This document shows, one piece after another, positions 26,703-28,152 of a stretch of 64,000 nt of DNA. The notes under the pieces were generated by a model. The model was not told the origin of the DNA. It made no database searches and saw only the letters and a list, made by a program, of their open reading frames with translations. Location: assembly GCF_015278255.1 (NCBI RefSeq), contig NZ_JADIJC010000002.1:519601-583600 (forward strand). Reading direction: 5' to 3'. This DNA is from Microbacterium hibisci. GTDB taxonomy: Bacteria; Actinomycetota; Actinomycetes; Actinomycetales; Microbacteriaceae. The translations under genes were made by a program, and so were the position numbers. Positions within the stretch are counted from its first letter, which is position 1. Each line of letters begins with the position of its first letter.

Positions 26703-26763
26703 TCCGACCGCCTCTCTGGTGCACTCCCGCGGCGTCCCTCCCTCTGCTGTCGACATCGCGGTT

Positions 26764-26815
26764 TCTCGGCGAGCAACCACATCGTCGGCGCCGACGCCAT
26801 GGTTACTCGCCGAGA
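26764..26815. repeat. Palindrome of the TCTCGGCGAGCAACCA family, copy 1
   Basis: Arms 26764-26789 and 26790-26815 match at 22 of 26 positions with no loop between them. The outer ten bases TCTCGGCGAG/CTCGCCGAGA are perfect. The rest of the 300-nt gap between the fusion gene and the AbiEi-like gene shows no gene. A second element with the same core lies on the other side of that gene at 28039-28088. Confidence 0.85.
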
Positions 26816-27002
26816 TCGAGCGATCTCGGCGGAGTCCGGAAACGGATGCGGCCGCCTGGGGGAACGGGATGCCGCGCCTCTCGCCATTCGGCGTGGCGAT
26901 CCACTCCTCCCCAATCGACTTGTATTGCAGGGGTGCGCGATCGCCACCACAGAAGTGCGCAGGAAGAACCCAGGGGTCCTCGGGGCGTGCCATCGTGCAC
27001 GG

Positions 27003-27986
27003 ATGCCTCGCCACATCAGCTTCGAGGACGCGCGTCGTGCCGTCCTTACCCGAGAGCGGCTGGAACGCAATCGGTGGAGCGACAGGGACATACGACGTGC
27101 GTTGGCGGGTGGCAGCCTTTTGCGACTCCAGCGGAACCGGTACGTTCTCGACGCGGACTGGACGGACCTGTGGCCAGAGTCCCGGCATCGCCTCGAGGTG
27201 GCAGCAGCTTTCGGCGAGATGCGTGGCGGCGGCGCGGTCGCTTGCCACGAGTCCGCCGCGGTGCTGTGGGATATCCCGCTGCTTCGTCACGTCCCCGGCG
27301 CCGTCCATATGACCATCCCCGGCGAGAAGCATGTGTCCAGCCGCAGGGGTCTTCGCCGCCACCTGGACGGACTGCCCGAGGATGACGTGACGACGCGCCA
27401 CGGCATCCGCACGACGACGCTCGACAGGACCCTGTTCGATCTCGCACGCACGCTCAGCTTCGAAGCGGCGGTCGCCGCGGTGGACGCCGGTATACGGCAG
27501 GTGGCGTTTCATGGCCGTGACTACCGCGAGGGCGTCGCAGAGGATTGGCGCGAGCGCATGTTGGTCCGCGTAGCGCGACACAAGGGAGTACGCGGAATCC
27601 GGCAGGCGCGGGCGGTGGTCGAGTTCGCCGATGGTCGCGCCCAGTCACCCGACGAGAGCCTCGCCCGAGTCCATCTGCGCACGCTCGGATTTCAGCGACT
27701 GAGGCTCCAAGTGCCGGTTCGTGGTCCAGAAGGCCAGACTTTCCGCGTCGACATCGAGATCGAAGACGTGCGGAGCTTCCTCGAGGTCGACGGCCTGGGC
27801 AAGTACGAAGATGTGGCGCTGAGATCGGGTCGGACGCTCGAGCAGGTGCTCCTCGACGAGAAGCGCCGCGAGGACTGGATCCGCGGCCGCACACAGCAGA
27901 GGTTCGTCCGGGCTGAGCACAGTCATCTGCGTTCCGCCGCGTCACTCGCTGCACGCCTCAGCGCGTTCGGCATCCGCACCCCGTAG
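27003..27986 (+). CDS. AbiEi antitoxin-like/DUF559 nuclease-like protein
   Basis: 327 residues. The N-terminal half resembles the AbiEi winged-helix antitoxin fold (ALAGGSLLRLQRNRYVL, ACHESAAVLWDIPL, HGIRTTTLDRTLFDLART). The C-terminal third resembles DUF559/Vsr-like PD-(D/E)XK proteins: SPDESLARVHLRTLGF, FRVDIEIED, FLEVDGLGKYED and LDEKRREDWIR. No cognate AbiEii toxin is adjacent. CATCGT at 26991-26996 lies six nt before ATG 27003. It is bracketed by two related palindromes. A solitary defence or regulatory role is speculation. Confidence 0.75.
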   Translation: MPRHISFEDARRAVLTRERLERNRWSDRDIRRALAGGSLLRLQRNRYVLDADWTDLWPESRHRLEVAAAFGEMRGGGAVACHESAAVLWDIPLLRHVPGAVHMTIPGEKHVSSRRGLRRHLDGLPEDDVTTRHGIRTTTLDRTLFDLARTLSFEAAVAAVDAGIRQVAFHGRDYREGVAEDWRERMLVRVARHKGVRGIRQARAVVEFADGRAQSPDESLARVHLRTLGFQRLRLQVPVRGPEGQTFRVDIEIEDVRSFLEVDGLGKYEDVALRSGRTLEQVLLDEKRREDWIRGRTQQRFVRAEHSHLRSAASLAARLSAFGIRTP

Positions 27987-28038
27987 CGGCCGCGTGTCCA
28001 CGCGCCGCAGCGCCGCCGGCTCGTCGATTACGCGGTTC

Positions 28039-28088
28039 CTCGGCGAGCAACCACCCTCTGAGCGGCGATGACGTGGTTGCTCGCCGAG
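28039..28088. repeat. Palindrome of the TCGGCGAGCAACCAC family, copy 2
   Basis: CTCGGCGAGCAACCAC (28039-28054) and its perfect reverse complement (28073-28088) form a 16-bp stem with an 18-nt loop. The core equals that of the element at 26764-26815. The flank GCGATGTCG (28094-28102) is the inverse of CGACATCGC at 26751-26759, so the two elements face each other in inverted orientation around the AbiEi-like gene. Confidence 0.85.
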
Positions 28089-28152
28089 AGAGTGCGATGT
28101 CGGCGGGCGTAGTGGCGCGACATCGGGCACGCAGCACCGGGGCGGAGGCGAT

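Follow-up and report, generated by a model that had tools for sequence, protein, structure and literature searches.

A nuclease gene with an AbiEi-like part bracketed by palindromes of its own family in Microbacterium and other Actinobacteria

In a stretch of 64,000 nucleotides of Microbacterium hibisci DNA (the window), a gene encoding an AbiEi-like part joined to a predicted Vsr-fold nuclease lies between two facing palindromes of one family, and this bracket is one case of a general pattern. Most homologs examined in the genus and across the class are bracketed in the same manner, by sequences which differ from gene to gene. Further copies of the palindromes lie dispersed between other genes, in one genome of another family of the class (G157) as elements with terminal inverted repeats, and the gene and its elements are present in some species and absent from others. 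The reading we favour, with a probability of about 0.7, is that the protein is a sequence-specific nuclease which recognises its own palindromes and mobilises or copies them, in a manner similar to REP/RAYT (REPIN) or insertion sequence/MITE systems, with a Vsr-like nuclease as the enzyme.

The upstream palindrome reads from 26764 as TCTCGGCGAGCAACCA..20 nt..TGGTTACTCGCCGAGA, and the downstream palindrome from 28039 as CTCGGCGAGCAACCAC..18 nt..GTGGTTGCTCGCCGAG. Compared as direct repeats, 26749-26832 and 28023-28106 were 77% identical over 84 nt; compared as inverted repeats, 26751-26814 and 28039-28102 were 78% identical over 64 nt, the outer CGACATCGC / GCGATGTCG included. The initial annotation of the window had placed the gene between two facing palindromes that match out to their outer flanks, as was found here. 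The exact 15-mer core occurs three times in the 3.97-Mb genome, every time at this locus. The neighbouring genes are a pterin-4a dehydratase/glyoxalase fusion upstream and rplJ downstream (Table 1). The first part of the gene, 27003-27260, has an atypical codon usage: trained on the window, a codon-usage scorer recognised 27261-27986 alone as coding sequence.

Table 1. Positions in the window of the gene, its two protein parts, the bracketing palindromes and the segment missing from an empty site.
Feature	Position	Strand	Basis or remark
Upstream palindromic element, ~84 bp	26749..26832		four CGAGnnACCnCG-like units forming two inverted pairs
Downstream palindromic element	28023..28106		same family as the upstream element
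Gene for 327-aa protein, AbiEi-like with Vsr-fold nuclease	27003..27986	+	open reading frame
AbiEi-like part, about residues 11-210	27033..27632	+	PADLOC profiles, Foldseek, Z 9.3
Vsr / I-Bth0305I-fold nuclease part, about residues 213-326	27639..27980	+	fold matches, invariant residues
Approximate segment missing in empty-site genome G010	26703..28147		from dehydratase stop to conserved GATTTGGC block upstream of rplJ

The AlphaFold2 model of the protein (mean pLDDT 91.8, pTM 0.89) predicts an AbiEi-like fold followed by one of Vsr type. Residues 11-210 matched the AbiEi antitoxin of S. agalactiae (6y8q) with a Foldseek E value of 2.6e-5 and could be aligned to it over 171 residues (Z 9.3, rmsd 7.4). 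The PADLOC AbiEi models matched all 52 members scanned, the window protein with a best E value of 4.2e-16 over residues 10-166, and Pfam AbiEi_4 matched 22 of the 52, which places the N-terminal and middle domains in the AbiEi antitoxin family. For residues 215-325 the top-ranked structure was the catalytic domain of I-Bth0305I (3r3p; Z 10.0, rmsd 3.1 over 94 residues); the Vsr endonuclease 1cw0 matched with Z 8.5, and the same list also contained mitoribosomal proteins at Z 9.3-9.8. Residues E218, D250, E261, D263, K267, E286, K287, R289, E290 and D291, the EK-RED motif among them, were invariant in 27/27 and 52/52 aligned members. Both the fold and the conserved acidic residues are those of Vsr-like PD-(D/E)XK nucleases; E218, D250, E261 and D263 would be the catalytic ones, and the invariance throughout the 52 members suggests that the active site is functional.

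Profile libraries added little to this picture. The window protein itself had no Pfam match at E ≤ 1, Transposase_17 was not among the 16 Pfam families matched by any of the 52 members at that threshold, a search of the sequences of solved structures found no match, and NCBIfam returned only scattered matches to unrelated families (best E 0.012). PADLOC matches in the window protein were confined to the AbiEi part, and outside the AbiEi models there was one weak match to DpdE (E 0.0025) in one member. The antitoxin-like and nuclease-like parts read earlier from the sequence are therefore borne out by the AbiEi profiles and fold and by the predicted Vsr-type fold. The accompanying label, AbiEi/DUF559-like, holds in its first half only: DUF559 (PF04480), whose D...ExDG core resembles that of the present proteins, gave one weak match (E 0.0086) in one of the 52 members and none in the window protein.

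No AbiEii toxin gene was found beside the window gene, in agreement with the initial annotation. Ten neighbours of six other homologs (10 of the 12 genes called, by a gene caller that can miss genes) comprised five YqaJ, two L10, Pterin_4a/Glyoxalase_6, ThuA and DUF624, with no toxin, and no methylase was seen among the neighbours examined. A toxin-antitoxin pair was rejected on this ground. The protein resembles type IV AbiE systems in its N-terminal two thirds, by both profile and fold, but differs from them in the lack of an adjacent AbiEii nucleotidyltransferase toxin, in its C-terminal nuclease and in the palindromes on both sides; because the toxin gene is absent beside the copies examined, it is by definition not an AbiE toxin-antitoxin system.

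The generality of the bracket was assessed in the genus: by protein search, 91 of its 99 genomes have homologs, often several per genome. Ninety-one homologous loci were oriented and the 350 nt before the start were aligned locally with the 350 nt after the stop, a score of at least 38 being counted as a match; L010 and L046 were dropped before counting, leaving 89 usable loci. The two flanks matched at 79 of these 89, as against 458 of 7832 mismatched upstream/downstream pairs and 3 of 81 control pairs made from distal flanks of these loci. At 49 of the 89 loci the gene's own downstream flank ranked first among all, and 10 fell under the alignment threshold. A chance repeat is ruled out by the core that is unique to the window locus together with the brackets of the homologs set against these controls. 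A set of named loci, which overlaps in species with the 89 and is not independent of them, gave a matching bracket in 64 of 76 (4 of 80 were dropped). In the class as a whole, relatives of the nuclease were found in 279 of 394 sampled genomes and in 116 of 137 genera. Brackets at this level were scored for 28 usable loci of 29 newly fetched (L313 was dropped), against the 279 genomes with relatives; they matched at 25 of the 28 and at 18 of the 21 from other genera, some of the seven same-genus loci being genes already in the 89-locus set.

The bracketing sequences vary by gene: CGAG is followed by GCAACCAC, TGCACGG, ATGACC, CCGCATA and others, and another group has GTTTGGGGCGCG. At L082, L089 and L071 the brackets are long direct-repeat arrays of a unit of ~40 bp with CCGATACGCGCCCC, instead of palindromes. 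At L010, L024, L025, L027, L029, L046 and L048 the contig stops no more than about 300 nt from the homolog, a sign that short-read assembly may fail at the brackets.

Palindrome likeness between loci rose with the identity of the proteins (Mantel r 0.54, none of 2000 permutations being as high), but less so among pairs below 60% protein identity, where r drops to 0.35. Palindromes cross-matched in 1.2% of the pairs at 40-45% protein identity, in 27% at 50-55%, 22% at 55-60%, 63% at 60-70% and 92% at 70-80%, and in 7/7 above 80%. Since the gene hardly moves and the loci are syntenic, this correlation may largely reflect shared ancestry: of the 84 pairs of homologs at 60% identity or more, 80 have 500 nt or more of homologous flanking DNA in common, 55 of them on both sides and 25 on one side or on the sole testable side, and 4 have it on neither. 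One of the four non-syntenic pairs, L032/L037, consists of two nuclease copies of the same genome (G092), about 60% identical and with unshared flanks, possibly a duplication to a new site.

From such comparisons the nuclease also seems to evolve fast. In the syntenic pairs L018/L021, L019/L021 and L013/L018 the flanking DNA is often 84-98% identical and the nuclease about 63-66%, protein identity here being set against DNA identity. This divergence could be explained by a defence or restriction-like nuclease, for which the palindromes would serve as self marks or decoys and the fast change would be the product of an arms race with phages; the PADLOC AbiEi matches in all scanned members and the Vsr/restriction-type fold point the same way. 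However, the neighbours examined include neither toxin nor methylase, the PADLOC matches of the window protein lie in the AbiEi part only and the DpdE match is a single weak one, and neither a matching bracket nor dispersed intergenic copies would be expected of such a gene. We regard a defence role as quite unlikely.

Dispersed copies of the palindromes were searched for with the window's upstream palindrome as query. It had seven more matches at E ≤ 1e-5 in the genome from which it comes (counted by hand) and, among 97 other genomes of the genus, a single one, in M. jejuense (G028), the holder of the closest homolog. Eleven elements of the M. hibisci genome, the two flanking ones and nine dispersed copies, could be aligned without internal gaps over about 85 nt; two of the nine are weak (C13:67375, weak in the search, and C16:82030, from a pattern search). 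All eleven carry CGAGnnACCnCG-like units, four in number and arranged as two inverted pairs. In M. jejuense the palindrome is a different one, dispersed in 13 copies at E ≤ 1e-7 (counted by hand), and 12 of these aligned with one flanking copy show the layout of the window's elements. The window's genome also encodes a second nuclease paralog, whose own, distinct palindrome family numbers 12 dispersed copies at E ≤ 1e-4 (counted by hand).

All 24 dispersed copies scored for their position lay between genes called by a simple codon-usage gene caller (9/9 for the window's family, 5/5 for that of the second paralog and 10/10 for that of M. jejuense), compared with 12% (587) of 4800 positions placed at random in these loci; for the second paralog's family 5 of the 12 copies entered the scoring and for that of M. 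jejuense 10 of the 13, L266 and L276 being dropped. The genes on either side of 23 copies were in tandem in 14 cases, convergent in 7 and divergent in 2 (counted by hand). The copy between glmS and acpS, the sole dispersed site compared between species, was missing in nine of nine relatives that kept both flanking genes. With this copy as query, the nine relatives gave three weak element matches in G028 and one match of 37 nt in G065; the three in G028 are to the window's family, and the families are therefore not fully private among close relatives. In G065 (L246) the glmS/acpS gap holds six repeats of the type GCCGAGC(A/C/T)TG followed by several inverted ones of the GGGCATGGTCGC type, and in G028 (L248) it is occupied by a further family, in the form of a long palindrome (GACTTGGCGTATATGTACGCGACAC...).

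The initial annotation would have taken palindromes at many unrelated loci as evidence against a link with such genes. In form this was observed, seven clear copies lying beside unrelated genes, but each nuclease examined has a palindrome family of its own, so the dispersed copies point to a REP/MITE-like system and not to a missing linkage.

In Microbacterium the outer limits of the elements are blurred. They are better seen in G157, where 24 dispersed sites (E ≤ 1e-4, counted by hand) match the flanking sequence of the nuclease gene, frequently as inverted pairs. At 14 of 19 fetched sites it forms elements of 168-210 nt (~190 bp) that end in inverted repeats around AATGATCACGTTCACCAC, the ends being matched with at most 4 substitutions; the other five sites have one recognisable end each. 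The element that carries the nuclease gene is 1242 nt long, and its ends are identical in kind to those of the 14 small elements. None of the 19 other fetched sites spans enough DNA to hold a nuclease gene between the ends. This set has the anatomy of an autonomous element with its miniature derivatives. Inspection by eye of the two ends of each of these 14 elements showed no constant target-site duplication. Two groups, five elements in all, have longer flanks in common and may have been copied together with their surroundings.

The initial annotation had also offered a self-regulated unit, and the palindromes could be operators through which the AbiEi-like part represses its own gene, the dispersed copies then forming a regulon. 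AbiEi antitoxins autoregulate through inverted repeats, the protein has an AbiEi-like part, and at most of the loci inspected the matching segment upstream is within about 80-260 nt of the start codon. Nevertheless, a matching element also follows the stop codon, the mostly tandem or convergent genes around the dispersed copies (14 and 7, against 2 divergent) make poor places for operators, and the G157 copies are mostly discrete elements of ~190 bp with terminal repeats. Gene orientation thus speaks against a regulon, and self-regulation alone fails to account for the downstream and dispersed copies. We consider operators an unlikely explanation of the palindromes as a whole; autoregulation via the upstream element may occur in addition to, or as a side effect of, the action of a nuclease on its own palindromes.

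The gene itself was taken at the outset for a small mobile cassette. A relative with intact flanks and no insert was found in G010, where the dehydratase stop is followed by 8 nt and then by the conserved block upstream of rplJ, the gene and both palindromes being absent. Twenty rplJ neighbourhoods, chosen and not drawn at random, were compared; 18 of the 20 have MFS, YqaJ and rplJ in that order and 15 are without a homolog. The unit lies left of YqaJ in G062 and G065, between YqaJ and the dehydratase in G068, between the dehydratase and rplJ in the window, and between YqaJ and rplJ in G028 and G087, where the dehydratase was not found. At least three gaps of one neighbourhood are thus used, with the orientation of the unit constant across them. 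An inversion does not explain the differing gaps; they could stem from rare local shifts of the unit, from repeat-mediated recombination or from displacement of the neighbouring genes.

Among the best homolog matches, 32 of the 95 genomes with an rplJ match have the gene upstream of rplJ at a distance of up to 5 kb (counted by hand; in G059 the orientation is opposite). On a quick gene tree with SH-aLRT support only, this position was clustered, with 5 label changes as against 26.9 after shuffling and none of 500 shuffles as low (G062, about 13 kb off, was counted as near rplJ); residence near rplJ is therefore old. The gene is mostly an old resident there, absent or in other gaps in some relatives. 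What is retained from the cassette proposal is a small unit, cleanly absent from G010 and lying in other gaps elsewhere; recent insertion at rplJ is given up as the whole story, as 32 of 95 genomes share a position clustered on the tree. A phage- or plasmid-borne element was also rejected, the searches having found no match in phages, 2 weak partial matches in plasmids and, in a pattern-based scan of viral contigs, none that was confirmed. The rplJ proteins of the genus occur in a form matched over 171 aa and in one matched over about 156-163 aa with lower identity, and rplJ likeness does not track nuclease likeness (96% and 47% in G087, 80-81% and 66% in G028).

The empty site in G010, together with I-Bth0305I as the best fold match of the nuclease part, would also suit a free-standing homing endonuclease gene, the palindromes then being either the site that it cleaves or scars left by repair. 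A homing site normally occurs once and is destroyed by the insert; the presumed sites of the window gene flank it intact on either side and are dispersed as well, and the gene keeps to few sites. From I-Bth0305I and other Vsr-like homing endonucleases, which it resembles in the fold of residues 215-325, the window gene differs in lying outside an intron or intein, in its fusion to an AbiEi-like part and in its bracketing repeats. Homing is in our view very unlikely.

Among the closest known systems are REP/RAYT and REPIN. According to PMC2817692, RAYTs carry a Transposase_17 (HuH tyrosine nuclease) domain and their genes are flanked by two palindromic repeats in inverted orientation, and REPs are extragenic and usually present in more than 100 copies per genome. 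The genes described here likewise encode a nuclease with inverted palindromes on both sides and, as described in PMC2817692 and PMC3116915, have an element family per gene, dispersed extragenic copies and a mostly vertical descent; the frequent inverted pairs in G157 are a further likeness. The differences are an AbiEi-like part with a Vsr-fold nuclease in place of Transposase_17, a host among the Actinobacteria, and 7-24 copies or sites in the four cases studied. Since Transposase_17 is missing and the copy numbers are lower, the protein is not a RAYT. To insertion sequences and MITEs the likeness lies in the terminal inverted repeats shared by gene-bearing and gene-less elements in G157, and the difference in the protein, in which no DDE transposase domain was seen, and in the lack of a constant target-site duplication. 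Open-access PMC text yielded, among the papers listed, no link of AbiEi or DUF559 genes to flanking palindromes, which is not proof of absence, and nothing joining DUF559 with AbiEi; texts matching both DUF559 and palindrome were unrelated by title. The portions available of PMC2817692, PMC3116915 and PMC12915292 do not describe this nuclease-palindrome system.

In the mechanism we propose, the AbiEi-like DNA-binding part would recognise a short unit, here about CGAGnnACCnCG, which is repeated in inverted pairs in the flanking palindromes, and the nuclease would mobilise or copy the palindromic elements. We infer that the protein binds and cuts its elements and that this cutting drives their spread; no transposition event was seen. 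The elements would spread between genes as small non-autonomous copies, and the gene with its bracketing pair would be the master unit, which mostly stays at a single chromosomal site and is inherited there. We give even odds to a wider proposal, in which AbiEi-like/Vsr-fold nucleases are the transposition enzymes of an unnamed class of palindromic elements in Actinobacteria, a convergent counterpart of RAYT/REPIN with a fast-evolving DNA reader fused to a restriction-fold nuclease that moves or copies the very sites it recognises.

This type of gene is common among Actinobacteria, and little beyond an AbiEi antitoxin is recognised in it by the scanned profile libraries. The present data recast many such genes as the enzyme half of a nuclease-palindrome system. 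The brackets of each gene provide a candidate recognition sequence for its enzyme, and thus many natural enzyme-site pairs from which specificity may be decoded. If the mechanism holds, these proteins would add a further type of nuclease to those which spread small palindromic elements in bacteria.
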